Shown: piece after piece, positions 1-26,843 of the stretch
Position numbering within the stretch: the first letter of the stretch is position 1
Layout of the letters: each line of letters starts with the position of its first letter
Virus record (IMG/VR): IMGVR_UViG_3300025617_000080
Coordinates: 1 to 29,448 of that record
Direction: 5' to 3' (one strand)
Source of the DNA: a virus
Length of the DNA stretch: 29,448 nt
The notes under the pieces: model-generated
Told to the model about the DNA's origin: nothing
Databases searched by the model: none
The model's input: only the letters and a program-made list of their open reading frames with translations
Made by a program: the position numbers and the translations under genes

Positions 1-3000
1 TCTATCTGGAAATTTAGTTATATAAACTTCATATGCTGTGGCATCTGTACCAGGAACTACATTTGTTACTTCTCTTAGAACCGTCCAATATTGTGCGCTT
101 CTTTCAGGATACTTTATAACTTCTCCTGGATAATATGTTAGTGTAGCGTCCCATGTTCCTCTATCTATACCTGTATCTTGAATACAAGCATAATAGAAAT
201 TATTATATCTTACAATACTTCTCGATCTGTAGCCATCGCCTGGTTGTACAGGAACAGCAGGGCTTACGCTAGTATCTTGTCTTAGTCTAACACTGTAAAC
301 ATCTTTGTTTTTAGTAACAGTAAACAATGCTACTTCGTTAACTGGTCTGCTAACAATTCCTGAAATATTATTAAATGTGTTTGATCCAAGAATTGTACCA
401 TTTTCATTAACATCTTTTACAGTAATAATAAGATCGTTATTTTCTGTACCGCTTGGAGGCTGTCCGCCAAGTCGTGTACCTTGAATTAATATTCTATCGC
501 CAATAGCGTAACCTGTTCCGCCGTTACGTACTTCAACATCATAAATGCCTGCGCCGGTTACTCTGCTAATATCAAATGTTGCGTCAACACCTGTAGAACT
601 TACATCAACACCGTTAACATTTTCATATAGTGCGTTATCAAGTCCACTTGAACCTGTAGTTGATACAGCAATAACACCACCGTTGTCGTCGACTTGACTA
701 ACAGTTAATGTTACATCTCCACTTGTTCCTTCAATACCTTCAAACTTACCAATAGTAATACTCGAGCCAAAGAATTCACCATGTGCTTGTCTAGGACTTA
801 GTAGACTATTTCTAAGTTTCCATTCACCATTAACATATTCATAAATGTCTACAGCACCTTGTCTAGAATATCCTTTGTTTGAAAGAATTAATTCTGCTCC
901 TAGTGGATTTGCTTCAACATTTTCTACAACGTTCCAATCTTGTGTAGACAAGTCAATAGTACTTCCATCTCCAAAAACTCTGTTATTTGCTTTGTATAGT
1001 TTACCAGCAAACAGAACAATATCTCCGGGCTCATAATTAGCATTTGGATCAAACTGTTCTTTATAATTGCTAGGCATAAAACTAGCTTTTGGTGAACCAA
1101 CTGCTAGCCATCTACCATCAGCACTGGCTGTCATTACATCAGCATAACTTCCTAGCAAATAAGGTTGTAAGCCACTTAATGGTGTTAAGATTTGTAAAGG
1201 TACAAGACCCGACTCGCCTTGCGAATAAGCAATAACCGCAGAGTTTCTAATAACATCGCCGCCTGTTACAACAGCGCCTGGGTTACCAACAATAGTTTGA
1301 TTTAGTTCGGGAACATAAGTTACAGAACTACCTGTTCCTGTCGGGAACGCAATACCATATTCTGAAATTTCTGTAACATCATATTGTTTATTTCTTTCTA
1401 CAACTTCCCAATTACCAGTGTCTTGATTTTTATCAATAAAGACTTTTGATCCAACTGGTAACTTAGCAAATCCTCGATCTATTAATTCTGAATAATTTGC
1501 CACCCTTACAGATTCAAAATAACTCACAAAAGCAAATGTACTTTGATCTAACTCGGGTGGTTCTTTAAATCCTGCGATAGCAATAACTATGAGTTTAGGT
1601 CCAACTTCAGCAATTTGGTAGAATCCTGTAAGACCTTGAATACTATTAAGTCCAATAACTTGTCCAACTTCAAAGTTATGTACTCTATTTGTAATTAGAT
1701 ATACTTTATCAACATCAGGAGTTTCTAATGCTCCAATCAAAACATTGCTCACAGTATATCTATAAACATTCCATTTACCTGGCTCAAATGTTGTCCAAAC
1801 ATTATCTCCGTGTTTGATATCGTCAATTGAAATATCATTTAACAAGAATTCATCAATGCTGTTTCTTATCCACTCAACATCCTGAGCATACACATACCCT
1901 GCTGAATTTACAGCAACAGGATAATTTTTAACAGGTAACTTAAAATTAGTATTGCCTGTTTGATAATCGTTATCAGTTAGCAAAATATAGTTTTGATATT
2001 GTGTTTTGTCAAATCCAACACTGTCTAAAATAACAGGTTGTGGATTTAATTTAAACTCTTTTGCTCTTAATTCAAACTCAGCTTCAGTAAGTTGATCACT
2101 TCCGCCAATTGTTCCTAATCTAAATGCCCACTCTTCATTGATAACAATCTTATCATCGTCTACTTTACTAACTTTATCAAATACTTTTAGTATTGAATTA
2201 AGTGTTCCTTTTTCTCTACTAAATCCTTGGTATAACTGGAATTGAGCAGTTTCATCTTCAGCAATTTCTTGTAAGTAAGTTCTGCTTTGATAACCAACAG
2301 TATGCTTGGCTAATTTTTTCTGTGCTGAATTAATACCATCAATAGATGTTTCATAATAATCTTCAATTTGATTTGCTCTAAAATCAAAGTTAGGAACTAG
2401 TCCGCTTGTAGGATTACTATCAAGTTTACTCCACTTTGAGTTATCAAATGTATCAGTACCGTTTTGGAAAACCATACTAACATAGTTGTACTGTTTATAT
2501 TGAACTATATCGCCAATTCTATAATCTGTATATTGTTTCCATGGCGCTATATTAACTTTATCGAATATAAATCCAGGACTGGTATAATCTCCGTCCCAAT
2601 CAGTTGTTCTAAACCCAACACATTTAATTCTTTCTTGTCTGTAACCAGGGCCTTTATCAAAAATCACATCATTAAACAATGTTCTATCATCAAATATTGT
2701 TACATGTTCTTTTTGTACATAATTGATTTCAGCAAAGAAAATACCGTCATCTGTTTCTGCTGGCGCAATGTATAATTCATTAGGTCCTCTATATACTTCG
2801 ATATTTGCTGAATCAATTGAGGTTCCGTCGGCTTTTAAAATATTGTAATCATAGAAGCCATCTAATAAATTATCTGCTACTGCTCCTACATTTTGAAAAC
2901 GTAAAAGTGTGGCGGCAGGGCTTAGTGCTATAAGACTTCCTTCTGCCCAGTTGTGTGTGGTCCAGAATAATAATTCTCTTACTGAAGTTTCCCAGTTTTG

Positions 3001-6000
3001 TACAAGATTTAGATCTTTACTGTATTCATCAAAGACCATTCCTTGCGATTCTAAATAGCTACCGTAACCAAGTAAAAAGTCTACTACTTCTTGAACAGTT
3101 CCAAATATTGTATCGTATCTTAATGTTAATACATCAGCAGTATTGAATCTAGATCTCTTAATTGCTCTTGCGGCTCCTACTACAGGAACTTTATCAATTG
3201 GCGTCCATTGTCCGTCACTAAACTTTTCTGTAGATTGCTGTGCTATAGTAGATCTATAAAAATTATTTTGATATCTAACTAAAACACCTTTAGTGTAGAA
3301 AGAATTTTCATTCCATTCTATAAAGGATTCGCTTACGCCGCCGACTTCTAAAACAGGATCATTTTGTTGTGAAAAATAACTAAAGTAGTTAAAAACAGAA
3401 TTTAACTGATCATACCCGCCGACTTTATATCCGCCTTCGACTTTTTCAACTAGTACAGCACTATATCGAGTAGTCAATAAAGGAGCACTTGTGTTGAATA
3501 TAATTTCAAAGTTTTCGTTTGGTATGAAAATTCCAGTTTGTGTACTTTGAGGATTTTTGCTATCTAATAAGAATTTTTGCTGTGTTTGATCAACAAAGCC
3601 TTTCATTCTTGTGCTTAATCTTAAATCAAAGTTTCCATAAATGTCTATTAAAGATTGTTTTGTTCTTGAATTAGATTTTAAATAGTTTATTGTATAGATT
3701 AAAAATCCATCAGGTCTAATATTAGAATTCAAACTATCAATAATATCATCTACCTTAATAAATGTATTAGTGTTCTTACTAACAATCTGATTTAATTTAT
3801 TTTTTGTTAAAATATTTCTATCTAAATTTAAACTAATAGTTTCAAACGGACGCAATAATGATGCCGCAATCATTAAAGCAAACGGATATGAACTGCTTCT
3901 TCTCCATGATGCTTCTGCTGGAGAAATATCTCCAAAGGAAAAATCAGCACGATAATCTGTACTGTAATCAATAAACGATTGTGTTTCTAAAGGTAACTTT
4001 AAATTTCCATCAGCATTAACTGGCAAGTATTCAAGTAACAGTGGTCTTTTATATCTTTGATACTCTCCAGCTCTTTCACCTTGACGGACAATACCATCTC
4101 GGATATCTTCCCAAAGGATTAAGTTGTTGCTAGTATATGGCGCTTCGCCATATTCGCTATCCCACCAGTCTGGTTTAATACTAAAACCTAACATCTCCCA
4201 AGGAGTTAAATGAGGAGTTTGTGTATCATACAAATATTGATACAAGCCTCTCCAATGTTTAGGCATAGATTCTTGTCTTTGAATATCTAAGTTTTTGTTA
4301 TAAGTCCAGGTAAACGGATTATCTGAATAATAATTGTTGTCGTAAATATCGAGACCTTTAATGACCGGCCATCTTAAAAACTCAAGTTCTAAAATATTAT
4401 CTACTTGTTTCTTAGTAAATGTTCCGGATTTATTGTATCCTCCGTATAACTGATCAATATCTAGAAGATCAGTATCATACTGTTTTTTAATATTATTGTA
4501 GACTCTCTTTTCAAACTCTAGTAATAGATCGTCTCTAAAATCGTCATAAGCAATAGTAATACTACCGTCGTGTCCTTGTATTACTTTACGTGGTTCAACG
4601 TATGTTGTATCAATATAAATCTTTGGAATATAGGATTTATAAAGTCCGAGGCTTGTAGGAGTTTCTGGAATAAAATTAAAAGAAGTAGAATAATATTCTT
4701 TAATTTTTAAAACTTGTCCTTCGACTAAGTTTCTAGTAATTCTAACAAATCCAAATTCGCTATCAAACTCATAATCTACACCGTGTAATAATTGACTTTC
4801 ATCAAGATATAGATAAACCGCTTTTATACTTGGATTTGTTAAGTCAAAACTTTCAGTAAGAGCAAATGTTTTAATGCCCTCATCTTCTACAGTGTATGTT
4901 GTAACTTTGTGTGCGCCGCTACCGATCATATCGCTGTTAGAAAACGCAGAAGTGTCTGGTTTTGACGAACTAATCTGTGTAATAATATCGTCTAACAGTT
5001 TAACAATGTCGTCATCGCCAAATGGTACTCTTATCGCTTGGTTTAAGAGATTTGATTTAAAATTTTCATATCTCGATGCGGCATATCGCAGAGACTTTAC
5101 TATATTGTTATTTTTATCACATAGCAAAGGAAGTGACATTCCCGCCACTGTAACATGTTTTACAAAACGCTGTCCTTTATTTTGATATCCAGTAAGATCT
5201 CTTAAATTCCCTGCTCCAGGAAATATGCCAACAAACTCTTCAGTGTAATCTATCATCGAACGGAGATGATCAGTTGCCTGTCCAAGAGTGAAGTCTGTAA
5301 GCTCTTTGTTTAATGGGTTACGTTCTAGACTTTTAGGAAATTCATAAAATCCTAATTCTGGATCAATATCAGAAAATACTTTTAATGTAATTACATCGCC
5401 TTGACTAAAAATTTTAGATGTAAAACTAAATGTTCTTGTTGCTTCTACTGTATTAACAACAGTGTATGCTTCATTAAAATATACTCCGTTTAGATAGAAA
5501 TATAGTTTAGCTGTAGGATCATTACCCCAGTTAATATTTGTAAATATTACCTCGGAACCATCTGAAGGCATAGTATACGTCTGTACAATAGCTTGATCGA
5601 ATGTGTTATCAGATTCAATATAAAGATTATGGTATGTAAAATTATCTAAACTGTAATTTGTTTTAATATATCCAACATTAATCTTTGAAGTTACTGTTTC
5701 AGCATTAACTTGATATGTAAATAAATCAACATCCCAATTAGACTGTAATACAATATCTCCACTATTTTCGATTGTTTGATAAGAAAGTGGAAATCCTAAT
5801 TCATCATCATTAGGTCCTGTTCCTATTTTGTAAGAAACAATTTTTGAACCCTGGAATCCAGATGTTTCATATTTTGTTGTATCGCTAAAACTTACGCCGA
5901 CGGCATCAAAAACATCAAACAAAGGCGGTTGGTTAACACTATTTTTTTCTTGGCTTTTAATCCAATCAGTGCCATTAAAATGATACATTGTTCCAGCATT

Positions 6001-7575
6001 GATTTTACCGAACTTAACAATTACGCCTTCGCCTGCTAATGTATCAACATCATCTGCTTCAACTAAAGCAATCTGTAGATTGCTGGCTACATTATTATCT
6101 TGAATAGCAACTTTTTTAACAACAAAAATTTTATTTTTAACTAGTGGATCTTGATCTGCTGTGAATAAAATTCTTGCGCCTTCGAAAATATCAACATTAT
6201 CAATATTATAACCTGCGGTGCCTTCAATAGTAGAAAATACATCAGTAGTAAAATCATCAATAAAATCAACACTTTGTTTAGCAACAGAGCAATGATTAAC
6301 TAATTGTAGGTTAGAACTAAATTCAATAATTGGTCTTTTAGCTCTAGTAGTTTCTGCTAAGGCTGCTGGTACTTTATTGAATTGAGCACTGTATTCTATA
6401 ACAGATTTATGAAACCATTTGTTATAACGACTCCATGGGTTTCTATCAAGACTTGCTCTACTAATTGTAATATAATCTTTATTAGAAGGATAACTTAGCG
6501 CATCATCAAATGGTAAATCATCAAACCCGCCATCGTCAAATAACACATCAACATCATCATTAGCAATAGGTGGTAAATCTAACTCTTTAAAGTTTACGAG
6601 TTTAATTTCGTCTCCGACACCGTCTACTAGCCATTCGCTTTCGCCGTATTCTTGAGGTTCAACATTGCCACTGAATACTACTTTTAAACCATTAGTAAAT
6701 TCAATTCCGTTAGAACTTTTATAATTTTTCTTTCCTAAAATCTCTTCAGCAACATTAAGGAAAGTATTTTCAGTAATAGAAGCAATTCTAAATGTTCCTA
6801 CTTTGTCAATATCAGTTGAACTTTGAAAATATATTACATCCGGACTGTTTAGAGGAACTGTAAATTGTAATGTTCCTACTTCGGTTCCATTGTTAACAAC
6901 ACCTTCGTTATAATCTGCTTGGCTTGTTCCGTCAGTATTGTTTCTTCTAATTGTAAACGGGTCGCCGGGTGTGTTGATTTCAAACACATAAGTTTGACCT
7001 CTATATAAAGTAATAGCAGGATTAGGTGTTAGTCCGTCTGGGTATAAAACATAAGCAGTATCTTGACTTCTTACTCTATATGTTGATACAACTGTTTGTG
7101 CTTGTCCTTCAACTGTTACAGAGTTTGGACCTTGCGGTAACCAGTAATACTCTCTATAGTTGATAAACTTGTCCCAATCAATAGGTGGGTTCCATGAGTA
7201 GGATTTAACTTGGGTTGTTAAATCATCTCTTTCATTGTTATTGTTAAAAAACTTTAATTGATTTTTAACATCGATATAATCATAGAAATTAACAACACTA
7301 CCGTTGTCAGGATCTGTAATAACAACACCAGGTTCAAGCTGGTATGAATATCTTAAGGACTGTTCTTGATCTAAATAAACATCTTTGCTATTATATGTTC
7401 TTCCGTAGGATCTTCCAATATAACCAGATAATCTATCTAGCGTTCCTGGTTGGACCAACGGATCAAGTGTAGCACCTAAAAACTTTCTGTTAGCTGGACT
7501 TTTAAAAACTGTAGGTAACAGCTCGTATGTCTGTCTAACAGGAAGTTCACTTTGTTTAAAAATTTTCTTTTCCAT
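1..7575 (-). CDS. Giant virion/baseplate structural protein (gp7 position), partial
   Basis: This reading frame is open for 2525 codons from the ATG at 7575 to the left edge, so the C-terminus is missing. The start codon overlaps the gp6 stop by one base (TAATG), showing translational coupling. In T4 the gene after 6 is 7, the wedge initiator, but this protein is far longer than T4 gp7 (about 1030 residues) and I cannot show homology; the name rests on position. Near the N-terminus is the segment WDKFINYREYYWLPQGP, and in the middle PWEMLGFSIKPDWWDSEYG; I associate both with very large structural proteins of marine T4-like phages. Segments at roughly residues 1420-1460, 1677-1717, 2178-2216 and 2475-2500 share a pattern (aromatic, G-D/E-hydrophobic-V, Y, aromatic-Y, then a closing W) resembling CBM5/12-like carbohydrate-binding modules. 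Likely a baseplate or fibre-attachment component. No stop was met in frame; both ends were checked. Confidence 0.8.
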   Translation of the reverse strand, partial: MEKKIFKQSELPVRQTYELLPTVFKSPANRKFLGATLDPLVQPGTLDRLSGYIGRSYGRTYNSKDVYLDQEQSLRYSYQLEPGVVITDPDNGSVVNFYDYIDVKNQLKFFNNNNERDDLTTQVKSYSWNPPIDWDKFINYREYYWLPQGPNSVTVEGQAQTVVSTYRVRSQDTAYVLYPDGLTPNPAITLYRGQTYVFEINTPGDPFTIRRNNTDGTSQADYNEGVVNNGTEVGTLQFTVPLNSPDVIYFQSSTDIDKVGTFRIASITENTFLNVAEEILGKKNYKSSNGIEFTNGLKVVFSGNVEPQEYGESEWLVDGVGDEIKLVNFKELDLPPIANDDVDVLFDDGGFDDLPFDDALSYPSNKDYITISRASLDRNPWSRYNKWFHKSVIEYSAQFNKVPAALAETTRAKRPIIEFSSNLQLVNHCSVAKQSVDFIDDFTTDVFSTIEGTAGYNIDNVDIFEGARILFTADQDPLVKNKIFVVKKVAIQDNNVASNLQIALVEADDVDTLAGEGVIVKFGKINAGTMYHFNGTDWIKSQEKNSVNQPPLFDVFDAVGVSFSDTTKYETSGFQGSKIVSYKIGTGPNDDELGFPLSYQTIENSGDIVLQSNWDVDLFTYQVNAETVTSKINVGYIKTNYSLDNFTYHNLYIESDNTFDQAIVQTYTMPSDGSEVIFTNINWGNDPTAKLYFYLNGVYFNEAYTVVNTVEATRTFSFTSKIFSQGDVITLKVFSDIDPELGFYEFPKSLERNPLNKELTDFTLGQATDHLRSMIDYTEEFVGIFPGAGNLRDLTGYQNKGQRFVKHVTVAGMSLPLLCDKNNNIVKSLRYAASRYENFKSNLLNQAIRVPFGDDDIVKLLDDIITQISSSKPDTSAFSNSDMIGSGAHKVTTYTVEDEGIKTFALTESFDLTNPSIKAVYLYLDESQLLHGVDYEFDSEFGFVRITRNLVEGQVLKIKEYYSTSFNFIPETPTSLGLYKSYIPKIYIDTTYVEPRKVIQGHDGSITIAYDDFRDDLLLEFEKRVYNNIKKQYDTDLLDIDQLYGGYNKSGTFTKKQVDNILELEFLRWPVIKGLDIYDNNYYSDNPFTWTYNKNLDIQRQESMPKHWRGLYQYLYDTQTPHLTPWEMLGFSIKPDWWDSEYGEAPYTSNNLILWEDIRDGIVRQGERAGEYQRYKRPLLLEYLPVNADGNLKLPLETQSFIDYSTDYRADFSFGDISPAEASWRRSSSYPFALMIAASLLRPFETISLNLDRNILTKNKLNQIVSKNTNTFIKVDDIIDSLNSNIRPDGFLIYTINYLKSNSRTKQSLIDIYGNFDLRLSTRMKGFVDQTQQKFLLDSKNPQSTQTGIFIPNENFEIIFNTSAPLLTTRYSAVLVEKVEGGYKVGGYDQLNSVFNYFSYFSQQNDPVLEVGGVSESFIEWNENSFYTKGVLVRYQNNFYRSTIAQQSTEKFSDGQWTPIDKVPVVGAARAIKRSRFNTADVLTLRYDTIFGTVQEVVDFLLGYGSYLESQGMVFDEYSKDLNLVQNWETSVRELLFWTTHNWAEGSLIALSPAATLLRFQNVGAVADNLLDGFYDYNILKADGTSIDSANIEVYRGPNELYIAPAETDDGIFFAEINYVQKEHVTIFDDRTLFNDVIFDKGPGYRQERIKCVGFRTTDWDGDYTSPGFIFDKVNIAPWKQYTDYRIGDIVQYKQYNYVSMVFQNGTDTFDNSKWSKLDSNPTSGLVPNFDFRANQIEDYYETSIDGINSAQKKLAKHTVGYQSRTYLQEIAEDETAQFQLYQGFSREKGTLNSILKVFDKVSKVDDDKIVINEEWAFRLGTIGGSDQLTEAEFELRAKEFKLNPQPVILDSVGFDKTQYQNYILLTDNDYQTGNTNFKLPVKNYPVAVNSAGYVYAQDVEWIRNSIDEFLLNDISIDDIKHGDNVWTTFEPGKWNVYRYTVSNVLIGALETPDVDKVYLITNRVHNFEVGQVIGLNSIQGLTGFYQIAEVGPKLIVIAIAGFKEPPELDQSTFAFVSYFESVRVANYSELIDRGFAKLPVGSKVFIDKNQDTGNWEVVERNKQYDVTEISEYGIAFPTGTGSSVTYVPELNQTIVGNPGAVVTGGDVIRNSAVIAYSQGESGLVPLQILTPLSGLQPYLLGSYADVMTASADGRWLAVGSPKASFMPSNYKEQFDPNANYEPGDIVLFAGKLYKANNRVFGDGSTIDLSTQDWNVVENVEANPLGAELILSNKGYSRQGAVDIYEYVNGEWKLRNSLLSPRQAHGEFFGSSITIGKFEGIEGTSGDVTLTVSQVDDNGGVIAVSTTGSSGLDNALYENVNGVDVSSTGVDATFDISRVTGAGIYDVEVRNGGTGYAIGDRILIQGTRLGGQPPSGTENNDLIITVKDVNENGTILGSNTFNNISGIVSRPVNEVALFTVTKNKDVYSVRLRQDTSVSPAVPVQPGDGYRSRSIVRYNNFYYACIQDTGIDRGTWDATLTYYPGEVIKYPERSAQYWTVLREVTNVVPGTDATAYEVYITKFPDR

Positions 7576-16797: not shown

Positions 16798-17649
16798 ATG
16801 GAGAACAATAACCTTATTATGACACAGAGAAAAGTAAACTACTTAAACAATAAAGACCTCTTAAAAGAGATTCACAGAAGCAAAAATACATTTTGCTCAT
16901 ATGTTGATAAAGAACATAGAGACTACGATATTATTTTACCAAGCCTTGAAAAAATAAACAGACTTACTATTGCCGAAGCAAAGCGCAATAAAGCAAAGAA
17001 ATTAAGTCAAGAAGCATATGAAGCGGCAAAAGCCGTGAACAAGAAGGCTACAGCAAAAGAACACGAAGTTGATTATCGAAAAATTGAAAAATCCGAACTA
17101 ATTTTTCGTATTATGACGTTTGAACATATTCCTTTAGCACCTGGCAGAAAGAAGACAATCAAAACTGTTGCCGATTCGCATGAGCGAGTCAACTTTCCTC
17201 CTTTCCAACACTGGAAATTTGATGAAAATGACAACTTGATTTGTGTTGGAAAAAGCCATTGGGTTGGCGGAATGAGCAATGGTTATTTTTCTAAAACAGA
17301 CGGACAAGCAACAAATGAGCTTGCTCGCATGTGGATGAAACTTGTTGATCGATACGCTACTAGAGGCAACGTTCGCGGTTATACCTATAACGACGAAATG
17401 AAGGGGCAGGCCATTTTACAGCTAGCACAGATTGGATTACAGTTTGACGAATCAAAGAGTCAAAATCCTTTTGCTTACTATACTGCGGCAGTCACAAACA
17501 GTTTTGTGAGAATCATTAACATCGAAAAACGTAATCAAAATATTCGAGACGATATCCTTGAAATGAACGGCATGAATCCAAGTTGGTCTCGCCAAAACGC
17601 CAATGAAGGTGTTGGAATCGACAAAGAATCTGTTGACAAAAGCAAATAA
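16798..17649 (+). CDS. 55: RNA polymerase sigma factor for late transcription gp55
   Basis: The 283-residue product is the T4 gp55-type sigma factor that directs host RNA polymerase to TATAAATA late promoters. The N-terminal VNYLNNKDLLKEI aligns with the start of T4 gp55, and the sigma region-2-like core is at about residues 195-240 (RGYTYNDEMKGQAILQLA, GLQFDESKSQNPFAYYTAA, NSFVRIINIEKRNQNIRDD). T4 gp55 is 185 residues; here about 130 extra residues (about 31-165) separate the two parts, including HWVGGMSNGYFSKTDGQ. The T4 C-terminal clamp-binding end (a hydrophobic SLDFLYE type motif) is not seen; this protein ends in a polar, Lys/Asp-rich tail. Two starts are possible: 16798, with no ribosome site, or 16819, which gives MTQRKVNYLNNK, fits T4 better, and has GGAG upstream although 15 bases away. 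Confidence 0.9.
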   Translation: MENNNLIMTQRKVNYLNNKDLLKEIHRSKNTFCSYVDKEHRDYDIILPSLEKINRLTIAEAKRNKAKKLSQEAYEAAKAVNKKATAKEHEVDYRKIEKSELIFRIMTFEHIPLAPGRKKTIKTVADSHERVNFPPFQHWKFDENDNLICVGKSHWVGGMSNGYFSKTDGQATNELARMWMKLVDRYATRGNVRGYTYNDEMKGQAILQLAQIGLQFDESKSQNPFAYYTAAVTNSFVRIINIEKRNQNIRDDILEMNGMNPSWSRQNANEGVGIDKESVDKSK

Positions 17650-20469: not shown

Positions 20470-20732
20470 GCACAGAATCGCATGACAAACTAATTCGAGC
20501 TTTTCAAGAGTATTTTAAATGGCAAGATAAGTTTGAATATGGCGGATCGGATGCGGCAGGCATCAAAGCAAGGTATTGGCTGAGCGAAATACGTAATTTT
20601 GCCAGCGACAGGCGCAATGAAATACAAAACAAAAGGCAACAACGCAAGGCAACCAGAAAAGGCGTGATAGGACGACCCAAGAAAGTAAGTAATGCTGATG
20701 ATGACGAATCCAGCATGGACTTACCAGAATAA
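20466..20732 (+). CDS. Small charged protein of unknown function
   Basis: An 88-residue protein starts inside the gene 46 stop (ATGA) and is therefore very likely real and coupled. The N-terminal 50 residues look helical (DKLIRAFQEYFKWQDKF, then KARYWLSEIRNFASDRR). The rest is strongly basic (NKRQQRKATRKGVIGRPKKV), including an AT-hook-like GRPKK, and ends in an acidic tail. The basic segment suggests nucleic acid binding, which would suit its place behind the recombination nuclease, but this is inference. The following gene begins inside its last codons. I do not recognise a named family. Confidence 0.7.
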   Translation: MSTESHDKLIRAFQEYFKWQDKFEYGGSDAAGIKARYWLSEIRNFASDRRNEIQNKRQQRKATRKGVIGRPKKVSNADDDESSMDLPE

Positions 20733-21159
20733 AGAAATTCATTCAATTCCTGAGGAATATGAAGGGTTTGTCTATCTCATTACTAATCTAAAAACTGGGC
20801 AAAAGTACGTAGGCAAGAAACTAGCCAAATTTAAAACCACAAAGCCACCACTCAAAGGCAAAAAAAACAAACGTAGAGGTTACAAAGAAAGCGATTGGCG
20901 TGAATACTGGGGATCCAGTGATAGACTAAACGCAGATGTAACCGCACTAGGCCCAGAAAACTTCACAAGAGAAATTCTATATCTATGTAAAGGCAGAGGC
21001 GAAATGTCCTACATTGAGGCAAGAGAACAATTTGACCGCCGTGTATTAGAAAGCGATGAATATTACAACGGAATTATTAATGTTAGAGTTGGCGGATCAG
21101 ATAAGTTACGACAGGCATTGCTAGAACACTCCATCAAGGCAAAGCAATCCAACACATAA
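20692..21159 (+). CDS. GIY-YIG nuclease family protein
   Basis: This protein of up to 155 residues has a GIY-YIG domain, the fold of the T4 Seg/I-TevI homing endonucleases and related nucleases. The two strands are GFVY (25-28) and YVG (39-41); conserved basic and aromatic residues follow in KESDWREYWGSS (66-76), and the probable metal-binding glutamate is E109 in SYIEAREQF. No separate DNA-binding domain such as a zinc finger is visible, and the protein ends soon after the catalytic fold. Starts at 20692, 20698 and 20701 are all in frame; the shorter ones (MTNPAWTYQNKE) look more like relatives I know. It overlaps the upstream gene by up to 41 bases. Whether it is a mobile endonuclease or a fixed repair/recombination nuclease cannot be told; coupling with 47-46 favours the latter. 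Confidence 0.8.
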   Translation: MLMMTNPAWTYQNKEIHSIPEEYEGFVYLITNLKTGQKYVGKKLAKFKTTKPPLKGKKNKRRGYKESDWREYWGSSDRLNADVTALGPENFTREILYLCKGRGEMSYIEAREQFDRRVLESDEYYNGIINVRVGGSDKLRQALLEHSIKAKQSNT

Positions 21160-22977: not shown

Positions 22978-23171
22978 AAGAAAGGTAATCCACTTTCCTT
23001 AGTGGTTTCCATATTCTGTTTTACAATAGAAATAATAATTTCTCTTTCATCAACACTGAGATTCATAGATTCAGTAAACGAGAGACCTCCCCTCATATAC
23101 CAAACAGCTCGCATTGCTTCTGTTTTTATTTGCTTAGCCTGCTCATCCATGGCTTTCGTCTCGGCAAGCAC
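22974..23171 (-). CDS. Small hub-assembly-like protein (gp51 position), probably made as a frameshift fusion with gp26
   Basis: As a separate gene this would be 65 residues from a GTG at 23171 with no ribosome site, 11 bases after gene 26. The frame is open further upstream to 23232, inside gene 26, and there reads FFRKRLSALDINNVLAETKAM, which looks like real protein. The core is EAMRAVWYMRGGLSFTESMN and the end is ETTKESGLPFF, a pattern I associate with the small gene after 26 in marine T4-like phages, where T4 has the assembly factor gene 51; homology to T4 gp51 is not demonstrated. The most economical reading is that it is translated by -1 frameshift from gene 26 (see slip site), giving a fusion of about 393 residues. 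An internal ATG (residue 8) is another possible start. Confidence 0.65.
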   Translation of the reverse strand: MLAETKAMDEQAKQIKTEAMRAVWYMRGGLSFTESMNLSVDEREIIISIVKQNMETTKESGLPFF

Positions 23172-23210
23172 GTTATTAATATCTAACGCCGAAAGCCGTT
23201 TCCGAAAAAA
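23153..23210 (-). promoter_or_regulatory. Programmed -1 ribosomal frameshift signal in gene 26
   Basis: On the minus strand the heptamer T TTT TTC occupies 23210-23204 in gene 26 frame (codons 315-317, D-F-F), a standard X-XXY-YYZ slip site. After an 8-base spacer comes a stem: CTTTCG (23195-23190) with CGAAAG (23158-23153), enclosing GCGTTA (23189-23184) with TAACGT (23175-23170), loop of 8 bases. The two helices stack on the 5' side with an 11-base bulge opposite. A shift here enters exactly the frame of the downstream small protein, before the gene 26 TAG at 23185. Confidence 0.7.
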
Positions 23211-24154
23211 TCCGCTTGATCCAATGTTAAGCTAACATCCCATTCGTGTTTACATTCTTCGTTTTCACATGTTGAACGGAAACTAGCCATTTTACCACTT
23301 TTTTGACTTTTACTAATAGCATCATTAATTGTGCTGAACACACTTTTATCTGCTTTTTGTAGAAACTCTTTAATATATACTGGATTATCTGTTGAACCTT
23401 GAGCACTATCAATTTTTACAACACATTGTACAGCAGTGTCAAGTGTTAAGTCAGTTAATTTAATAAAACTTTCTTGGAACAATGTCATTTTCTTTTGATC
23501 ATCGATTTTATCATCGTTGATAATAGAAAAGATACGCTGGTGTTCAAACGACTTTAACGCAGTTTTAGTAATTTCTTGATAATTCATTGGCCGTAAATGA
23601 ATTAACATATCAGTACCAATTTCAACTGACGTAGCAAACTCAATTGATCTCAAATTATCAAGTACTGTTCTTAGATCTACTGCTTTTTCGTTTTGTGTTT
23701 GACATTTTGGACAAGTAGCATTTACGTCCATTGTTTCGCCATATGTTGCCATTCTAATAGCACACAGTACAGCATCAACATCTAAACTTGGCATGCTCCA
23801 AGCATTTTTAATAGATGGAATACAACTTTGTATTACTTCAACAATAGCAGAGCCATTCATTAAAGCATCTGGTGTTTTGAAAAGCAATTCGTCACGTGCT
23901 GTCATAGCATAGACTGGATGCTCTCCGGTTTCTGGAGTTTCCAAACTTCCTTGAGGCCAAAATTTGCCTCCACTTGGAAACTCTACATGAATCTTTGGCT
24001 GTCTAAAGTATCCAGCTAAAGGATTTCCTGATGCTTGAGGCTTTTGTTCCAATGGAACTTGAGCTTGCGGCACAGCAGTTTGTGGCATATTAGATGCCTG
24101 TTGCGCCTGTGCTTGTACAAAAGCATTAGGATCAAATTGATTGTTTTCGGCCAT
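23183..24154 (-). CDS. 26: Baseplate hub/assembly protein gp26-like
   Basis: The 323-residue product resembles the T4 gp26-like family of baseplate hub proteins. The first 48 residues are Gln/Ala/Pro-rich and flexible. The core begins PKIHVEFPSGGKFWPQGS and continues with VYAMTARDELLFKTPDALMNG. Two cysteine pairs, C148-x2-C151 (CPKCQTQ) and C296-x4-C301 (CENEECKHEW), would bind one zinc. T4 gp26 is 208 residues and lacks the N-terminal extension. The end contains a -1 slip sequence at codons 315-317, so two products are likely: this one and a longer fusion with the next frame. A perfect late promoter lies 35 bases upstream on the minus strand. Confidence 0.78.
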   Translation of the reverse strand: MAENNQFDPNAFVQAQAQQASNMPQTAVPQAQVPLEQKPQASGNPLAGYFRQPKIHVEFPSGGKFWPQGSLETPETGEHPVYAMTARDELLFKTPDALMNGSAIVEVIQSCIPSIKNAWSMPSLDVDAVLCAIRMATYGETMDVNATCPKCQTQNEKAVDLRTVLDNLRSIEFATSVEIGTDMLIHLRPMNYQEITKTALKSFEHQRIFSIINDDKIDDQKKMTLFQESFIKLTDLTLDTAVQCVVKIDSAQGSTDNPVYIKEFLQKADKSVFSTINDAISKSQKSGKMASFRSTCENEECKHEWDVSLTLDQADFFGNGFRR

Positions 24155-24233: not shown

Positions 24234-26843
24234 ATGGCAAAAACAACAGTTGAAATATTAGGCGGACAACTTGACGGAGCAATCCTAGAAAATGCCGCTT
24301 CTGAAGAAACTCTCAAACAACTTGTAGCCGCTATTAGCGGCGGTAGTGGCTATTCTGCTAGCGGCGGCGGAGCAAGTTCTATGGTAGGACGCACACCAGC
24401 AGGAATGATTGCTGGAGGTGTAGTTGGTGCTATTGGCAGTTCAATCAAAGGTGCTGTAAATCAAATTGGAAATGTAGCAGGCACAACAGGCGCATTTGCT
24501 GGAATGCTGTTAAAAGGCCAAGGAAATTTAAGCGCATATACAAAAACTTTAAATGAACAGGTTATTAAACAGATTCCTGTATTTGGAAAATACTTAGGTG
24601 CTGTCGGCGGCGCTGTAACTGGTACCGTACAAGAATTTGAAAGATGGAATAAAACCTTACAATCTTTAACTGCTAGCGGTGCTACATTTAATAATAGTAT
24701 TATACAAATGATGCATGCTAGTACTAAATCGTATCTAACCCTTGATCAATTTTCAGACTTAGTATCTAAAAACTCAGCTACTATGAGAATCTTAGGTGAA
24801 ACAGTTACACAAGGTGCTCAAGCATTTAGTGATTATTCTTATGCTGTTTTAAATGCTAGCGGACCTGCTAGAAAAACATTGATATCTATGGGTTACACTA
24901 TTCCTCAAATTAACGATCAGTTGGTTAGATTTTTAGATGTTAACTATCGTGGAACACGACAAGATCAAATAAACGAAACACAAGTAGCAAATTCATTTGT
25001 TGAATATCAAACGCATTTACATAGACTTACAACATTAACAGGTAAACGTTCAGATCAACTTGAACAAGAAATGGAATCGGCAAGAAATGATGCGGCATTC
25101 CAGTTAAGATTAGCACAGTATCCTGTTGAAATTAGAGCACAACTTAATCAACAACTTGCGGCATTCACAGCAATGCACGGTGCGGGCGCCGCAGAATTGT
25201 TTAAGGCTAGATTCTTAGGATTAAATCCGATGACAGATAATGCCGGCCTTATGAACATGATGTTTCCAAATCTTATATCAGAGATAGACAATTCAATTGC
25301 TCAAGCTCAACAAGGTGGACAAACTCTAGAACAGAGAAATAGTGAAACAGCTAATCTTATGGTTAGATTATTAAGAAGCGGTGCTAACAGTATTCAAGAA
25401 TTCCGTCCTTTATTAGAAGCGGCTGGTGTAGGCGCAAACGAATTAGATGGTGTTGCTAATGCTTCAGCTACCATGGCACAAAATTTAGCCCGTATGGGTA
25501 TTGATATTGAAAACGTATCTGATGATGAATTACACGCACTAGTTCAAGCACAGATGGATGAGATGAATCAAAGAGAAACATTTACTCAAATTCTAAGACA
25601 GTTCCAAACAGCAATGGGTGATTTTAGAGTAGCATTCTTCGAAACTCTTATGAAGCCAGGTGGTCCTTTAAACGAATTTAGTAAAATGATGGAAGAACAG
25701 CACCTTGATACTAAGATTAGAGAACTAGGTGTTACAATGGGTAATTTTGTTAGAGAATATTTGCCTGATGTTGTTACATTCTTTGCTGGATTTGCTACTG
25801 ATCCAGGAAGGCAGTTGTTTAAAGAACAAATAGGTTATTTGTTTGAAACTGTCGGTGCTTACTTTATGAACTATCTGCCAAGGCTAATGGGTATTGATAT
25901 AGATCCGCAGATATTACAAAGCGATTTACAAAATATTAGAAATAGGTACGATCCGATATTCCAAAATCTCAATAGATCAAGAGATATTGCTGTAGACGAA
26001 ATGCTATCAAGACCAAACAGAGGAGAAGGTGCTGTTGCTGACACAGGTGGACAAGATCTTTCAAATTTAACTCCTCAAGAACGAATGGCAATACAAGTTT
26101 ACAGATCATTTATTGCTCAAGGTCTTCCTGATGATGTTGCTAGAGCATTAACAGCAGAAGTAGCTAGAGAAAATGCGTTTAATCCTGATTTAATATTTGG
26201 ATCCCACTCTGATCCTTACAACAATGTAGAAAATGTTGGTATGATATCTTGGCAGGGCGCAAGAAGAACAGCGTTTTTAGATTGGATGACTTCAGGCGGA
26301 TTTATAGGATCAGATGGTAGAATTGTACGAAGTCAAGCATCGTTGAATCATCAAGCTGCATTTTTAGTTAACGAAATCCAAAACAATCCATCATATCAAG
26401 CAACAGAGGATTATATTGGTGGCGCAAACAGAACGTTTGAAGGGTTACACGATGTTCTAGGCAGGAACTATATTAGGTGGAGAATTGATGATCCTAATTA
26501 TAGATCAAGCGGCTTTAATAATATACGAGGCGGATATAATATTCTTAATAGAGGCCTCGGATCTCTTAATCCAGATGAGATGAGAGCAGGTTCTCTAGGA
26601 GCTTACGGATCGCTATTTGCTGATATGGGCGGAAAAGAAGTCGAAGTACACAATGAAGAAGCGATAGTATCACCAGGCCAGTTAACTAGTGAAATGATGT
26701 CATCGGCTGAAGATTCATACGCTGGCGTTAACGATTTAAATCAAAAACTTAGTGCGTTAATTGCTTTAACACAGCAAAGATTAGATATCAGTGAACGACT
26801 TGCTGAAAAAATGGCTACAAACAGTAACAAACTGTATGCTTAA
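24234..26843 (+). CDS. Tape-measure-like virion protein with C-terminal tail-lysozyme-like domain
   Basis: This 869-residue protein has a Gly/Ala/Ser-rich N-terminus (EETLKQLVAAISGGSG, then alternating Gly-Ala helices to about residue 135), a long helical middle to about 590, and a distinct domain at about 605-775. That domain matches the pattern of phage tail lysozymes: AEVARENAFNPDLIFG, where E646 sits where the catalytic Glu of the usual ESGFNP motif lies, then VGMISWQGARRTAFLDWM and SLNHQAAFLVNEI. It then ends in a coiled-coil-like segment after EEAIVSPGQLTSEMM. Expected to be carried in the tail tube or virion and to open peptidoglycan during DNA entry. The neighbouring downstream gene is a paralog. 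T4 gp29, the tape measure, is 590 residues; direct homology is not visible, so the tape-measure role is inference. Confidence 0.68.
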   Translation: MAKTTVEILGGQLDGAILENAASEETLKQLVAAISGGSGYSASGGGASSMVGRTPAGMIAGGVVGAIGSSIKGAVNQIGNVAGTTGAFAGMLLKGQGNLSAYTKTLNEQVIKQIPVFGKYLGAVGGAVTGTVQEFERWNKTLQSLTASGATFNNSIIQMMHASTKSYLTLDQFSDLVSKNSATMRILGETVTQGAQAFSDYSYAVLNASGPARKTLISMGYTIPQINDQLVRFLDVNYRGTRQDQINETQVANSFVEYQTHLHRLTTLTGKRSDQLEQEMESARNDAAFQLRLAQYPVEIRAQLNQQLAAFTAMHGAGAAELFKARFLGLNPMTDNAGLMNMMFPNLISEIDNSIAQAQQGGQTLEQRNSETANLMVRLLRSGANSIQEFRPLLEAAGVGANELDGVANASATMAQNLARMGIDIENVSDDELHALVQAQMDEMNQRETFTQILRQFQTAMGDFRVAFFETLMKPGGPLNEFSKMMEEQHLDTKIRELGVTMGNFVREYLPDVVTFFAGFATDPGRQLFKEQIGYLFETVGAYFMNYLPRLMGIDIDPQILQSDLQNIRNRYDPIFQNLNRSRDIAVDEMLSRPNRGEGAVADTGGQDLSNLTPQERMAIQVYRSFIAQGLPDDVARALTAEVARENAFNPDLIFGSHSDPYNNVENVGMISWQGARRTAFLDWMTSGGFIGSDGRIVRSQASLNHQAAFLVNEIQNNPSYQATEDYIGGANRTFEGLHDVLGRNYIRWRIDDPNYRSSGFNNIRGGYNILNRGLGSLNPDEMRAGSLGAYGSLFADMGGKEVEVHNEEAIVSPGQLTSEMMSSAEDSYAGVNDLNQKLSALIALTQQRLDISERLAEKMATNSNKLYA

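Follow-up and report, generated by a model that had tools for sequence, protein, structure and literature searches.

Genomic context and the gp26 gene

The window, which is the whole stretch of DNA analysed here, is a virus record of 29,448 bases. Its minus strand carries at 23183-24154 a gene predicted to encode a protein of 323 aa, referred to here as gp26 or the short tail assembly chaperone (TAC-N). The protein matches the T4_baseplate profile PF12322 (E 1.3e-14) with 54.9 bits, above the gathering score of 24.5, as well as the baseplate hub family phrog_150 (E 4.8e-19). According to a Foldseek search its AF2 model (pLDDT 87) resembles T4-like baseplate hub proteins, with weaker matches to proteins of phiKZ-like phages. 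Solved structures similar to gp26 were retrieved neither by sequence search nor by Foldseek. Two cysteine pairs of gp26 (C148 and C151, C296 and C301; window 23702-23713 and 23252-23269, minus strand) are invariant in an alignment of 16 sequences, which suggests a putative zinc site.

The divergent neighbour of gp26 at 24234-26843 on the plus strand encodes a tape-measure-like protein of 869 aa with a tail lysozyme domain (PF18013, E 3e-7) and a weak match to TMP_3 (E 0.0013). A homologue of this gene is located divergently from gp26 in 52 loci; in cyanophage Sf-FS3 the chaperone locus is followed by a tail-lysozyme protein on the same strand. Further genes of the window include an open frame (1-7575, minus strand) that spans 2525 aa or more and runs off the left end of the contig, a protein of 283 aa with a weak, sub-threshold match to Ntox15 (16798-17649, plus strand; E 0.0085) and a SegE-like GIY-YIG endonuclease (20692-21159, plus strand; PF19835, E 8.5e-35), which is encoded downstream of SbcD/SbcC-like (gp47/gp46) genes.

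A conserved slip site at the end of gp26

The final codons of gp26 are GCG GAT TTT TTC GGA AAC GGC TTT CGG CGT TAG. An earlier note on this DNA had placed a slippery heptamer, T TTT TTC, in the frame of gene 26 at 23210-23204 (minus strand), and GAT TTT TTC was indeed read there. The 0-frame stop TAG (23185-23183) follows six codons beyond the slip site.

The note had also proposed that the heptamer be sought in relatives, where it proved to be kept at the same position in all those examined. An in-frame T TTT TTN was detected at the C-terminus of gp26 in 102/102 loci (99 TTC, 2 TTT and 1 TTG), a set that includes near-duplicates and amounts to 91 distinct downstream stretches. This set of window-type and related loci comprises the window itself, loci from IMG/VR (L014-L100), 13 isolates (Phosso, Atu_ph07, XaC1, PA5oct, 121Q, RaK2, SCTP-2, Vibrio 2.275, Munch, BF, GAP32, XacN1 and CM1) and four further phages, namely Rhizobium phages IC12 and RL38J1, cyanophage Sf-FS3 and Aeromonas phage phiAS5. 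The 13 isolates share the heptamer at 26-38% identity, and it is present in a fragmentary locus (L019), too. For the 80 loci that the gp26 alignment brought in, recruitment relied on a single peptide pattern distant from the slip site. At other codons of gp26 the same in-frame pattern occurs only twice among 30,192. A second search that started from a cyanophage gp26 yielded cyanophage-type loci, all of which (80/80) carry the heptamer.

T4-like phages outside both sets were checked as well. Pseudomonas phage Cygsa01 has a small frame at the -1 position without the heptamer, and T4, Aeromonas phage 31 and Acinetobacter phage Stupor have neither the small -1 frame nor the heptamer. Many marine relatives (L015 and many of L031-L099) carry a second heptamer, A AAT TTT, which overlaps T TTT TTC, so that tandem slip sites are possible in these loci.

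The -1 frame extension

A -1 slip at this site would lead into an extension (TAC-C domain) that occupies 23204-22974 on the minus strand and ends with the stop TAA at 22976-22974. The -1 frame of the window is free of stops down to this codon, beginning at 23231 as stated in the earlier note, and runs into the small frame that had been regarded as a gene; the products, predicted there to have 323 and about 393 residues, amount to 323 and 393 aa. No relative has a stop in the -1 frame ahead of the small frame, and in every locus carrying the heptamer this frame continues uninterrupted past the 0-frame stop.

The extension is characterised by the conserved motifs FFRxRxL...WYMRGG...LSxEERxII...LPFF. 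The residues F F R x R/K I/L L follow directly after the slip, W-Y-M-R-G is found at residue 36 and the C-terminus reads LETTKKSGLPFF. An AF2 model of the domain is helical (pLDDT 87), and no convincing family was detected for it in Pfam, PHROGs or NCBIfam.

Several relatives have the small frame annotated as a separate gene, which would be translated, through reinitiation after gp26 or translational coupling to it, from a start of its own (GTG at 23171-23169 or ATG at 23150). Such an arrangement may find some support in the cyanophage-type loci, all 80 of which have an ATG as codon 5 past the slip; since this codon is conserved, a separate small product may be made in that type. However, the ATG and GTG codons of the window-type loci are spread across 20 positions, of which the best is kept in 25/98, and the conserved peptide with FFRxRxL starts right at the slip site and precedes every start codon. 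The GTG, which the earlier note had rightly described as devoid of a ribosome site (no Shine-Dalgarno-like sequence lies within its reach), is moreover not conserved, as codon 13 encodes Ile in 78/84 relatives. Furthermore, in 18 of the 87 loci that contain the motif it is preceded by no ATG, GTG or TTG, and PA5oct lacks a start codon in the entire frame. Taking into account these loci and the Ile at the position of the GTG, a separate gene is unlikely in the window-type group. It would also leave the invariant T TTT TTC unexplained, and we consider it very improbable as an explanation of the locus.

The two phenylalanines might alternatively be retained for reasons of the protein, with the heptamer as a by-product. 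T4 gp26 has FF near its end as well (FFELL), written TTC TTT. However, it is the codons that are fixed in the present loci: T TTT TTC is used in 99 of the 102, in comparison to none of the 37 further FF dipeptides of gp26, a single one of which is encoded by T TTT TTT. In addition, neither the heptamer nor a -1 domain behind gp26 occurs in T4, which possesses gene 51 in place of that domain. The chance that protein constraint accounts for the heptamer thus appears slight. Finally, a homopolymer error in sequencing or assembly that split one gene, as the six consecutive T of a metagenome contig might suggest, is practically negligible and already refuted by the relatives, given that the same layout recurs in more than 180 records including the complete isolate genomes of RaK2, 121Q, Atu_ph07, PA5oct and phiAS5, and that the 0-frame stop of the window-type loci lies 10-40 nt past the start of the slip site. 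The conservation rules out chance and sequencing error and, for the window-type group, all but rules out a separate gene.

Potential stimulatory elements

The clade of the window shares a conserved helix, GGCTTTCG/CGAAAGCC, that follows the heptamer after a spacer of 6 nt. Its 5' arm (GGCUUUCG) is located at 23197-23190 and pairs with the 3' arm (CGAAAGCC) at 23158-23151 (both minus strand). With 10 bp tested, 65/70 cells are paired in this clade, compared to at most 34 when the arms are slid by 1-3. The other 81 sequences have a different helix at +5/+36 with G-C to A-T exchanges on both sides, and here 538/729 cells are paired as against at most 389 in slid controls. The 60 nt past the slip are more stably folded than shuffled sequence, with a mean folding z of -2.16 compared with -0.18 and -0.23 for control stretches, these values being based on mononucleotide shuffles and on related sequences that are not independent.

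The stem postulated in the earlier note is thus conserved and covarying as an element, although its spacer is 6 nt rather than 8 and the two-helix fold drawn there is not the conserved helix. The minimum-energy fold of the window is of modest stability (z -1.87) and likewise differs from the conserved helix. The two-helix fold was rejected as the conserved stimulator in favour of GGCUUUCG/CGAAAGCC.

A different element was detected in the cyanophage type, where a Shine-Dalgarno-like GGAGG ends 10 nt ahead of the heptamer in 67/80 loci (L108-L187); no such motif was found upstream of the slip in 98 window-type loci. An upstream Shine-Dalgarno stimulator resembles the dnaX arrangement. Since GAG GGN encodes a conserved Glu-Gly, protein constraint may contribute to the conservation of GGAGG. 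Judging from the sequences, there are apparently two kinds of stimulator, a downstream stem in the window type and an upstream Shine-Dalgarno-like GGAGG in the cyanophage type.

Relation to T4 genes 26 and 51

T4 gp26 and gp51 are listed among the hub assembly chaperones (PMC3004832). When compared by hhalign, T4 gp26 aligned with the short product (probability 98, E 6.1e-13) and T4 gp51 with the frameshift product (probability 97, E 1.6e-11), the N-terminal part of gp51 on gp26 and its C-terminal part on the -1 domain; the -1 domain alone gave a weak alignment with gp51 (probability 76, E 2.4e-5). Since the whole frameshift product finds its counterpart in T4 gp51 and the short product in T4 gp26, we regard the locus as a tail assembly chaperone locus (TAC-N/TAC-NC). 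The profile alignments furthermore indicate that the one slipping gene of the window corresponds to two genes in T4, with T4 gp26 homologous to the short form and gp51 to the long form.

The earlier note had considered the small protein to be of gp51 type. This holds in so far as it matches the C-terminal domain of gp51; it does not correspond to the whole of gp51, which spans the fusion. An assignment of the small frame to gp51 by position was rejected, as T4 gene 51 is divergent from gene 26. That T4 encodes both proteins as separate genes, as likewise stated there, is borne out. The difference to the present locus is that these are two divergent genes without the slip heptamer, T4 gene 26 running into gene 25.

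Proposed mechanism

The anatomy of the locus, its conservation, the covariation and the homology of the fusion with T4 gp51 are directly supported by the present analysis. We regard it as highly likely that gp26 is a T4-like TAC-N and that a -1 slip on T TTT TTC, helped by the stem, gives rise to a TAC-NC of 393 residues. Conservation of the heptamer, the open -1 frame and the covariation of the stem all support the suggestion of the earlier note that a -1 frameshift serves here as a device similar to that of lambda G/GT.

Based on the sequence features described above, ribosomes very probably slip back by one base near the end of gp26 in some rounds of translation. Aided by the stem-loop 6 nt downstream, a fraction of them would slip at 23210-23204, bypass the stop at 23185-23183 and add 76 residues to yield the TAC-NC of 393 residues. 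By analogy to lambda G/GT, the short and the long form may then cover the tape measure protein and bring in the tube subunits. The slippage in this phage, its rate and a role of the two forms as chaperones of the tape measure protein are inferred.

The product that is commonly labelled "hypothetical protein" or "baseplate hub assembly catalyst" in numerous marine and jumbo T4-like phages most likely represents the C-terminal domain of a frameshifted chaperone rather than a gene of its own. The Foldseek matches to the gp26 model include uncharacterised proteins of RSL1, RSF1, RP12, Special G and Eowyn (phiKZ-like or other jumbo phages), and on account of such matches the chaperone fold may extend past the T4-like phages. 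A wider scenario, which we put forward as a rather doubtful one, would have the frameshifted chaperone ancestral to the T4-like superfamily, the TAC-N fold present in uncharacterised proteins of 380-550 residues from phiKZ-like and other jumbo phages, the stimulators (stem or Shine-Dalgarno) swapped between lineages and the slip replaced by two genes in T4. The more than 180 aligned loci offer a collection of naturally occurring versions of a single slip site, for which two types of stimulator are apparent.

Comparison with known systems

Vladimirov, Gautam and Davidson (2022, Virology 566:9-15) reportedly found frameshifting to be a conserved trait of several T4-like groups, T4 itself making use of genes 26 and 51. 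The identification of these genes in T4-like phages is credited to them in two later papers: poly-T slips in the TAC-N genes of T4-like phages are cited from that work in PMC12846349, and according to PMC10885494, which also cites it, some T4-like phages carry separate genes for the short and the long chaperone instead of frameshifting. Judging from these accounts, a frameshifted chaperone is already reported for T4-like phages and the present locus is a further example. The logic shared by the tail chaperones of T4-like phages and lambda, which the earlier note had put forward, had been proposed before for T4-like phages by Vladimirov et al. in 2022, whom both PMC12846349 and PMC10885494 cite. 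As far as described there, the T4-like TAC-N/TAC-NC agree with the present locus in the gp26-family short form, the long form with a C-terminal domain and the -1 frameshift in groups other than T4. This contig and its marine relatives are additional members, and the covariation of the stem and the two apparent kinds of stimulator were worked out here.

A -1 frameshift in tail chaperones has also been described for other myoviruses, the Vandenendeviridae and Andersonviridae (PMC12846349). These resemble the present loci in a -1 frame that is open in every genome, a poly-T motif and a downstream frame formerly regarded as a hypothetical protein. They differ in the motif, GTTTTT, and belong to other phage families.

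Lambda G/GT, as reportedly described by Xu, Hendrix and Duda in 2004, makes a minor, longer form of a tail chaperone through a -1 slip close to the 3' end of the gene, and the proposed slip at the present locus resembles it in this respect. Lambda G/GT uses a different slippery heptamer. The tape measure gene of lambda is located downstream on the same strand, whereas the tape-measure-like gene of the window is divergent. The present locus ties T4 gp26 and gp51 to the lambda G/GT scheme.
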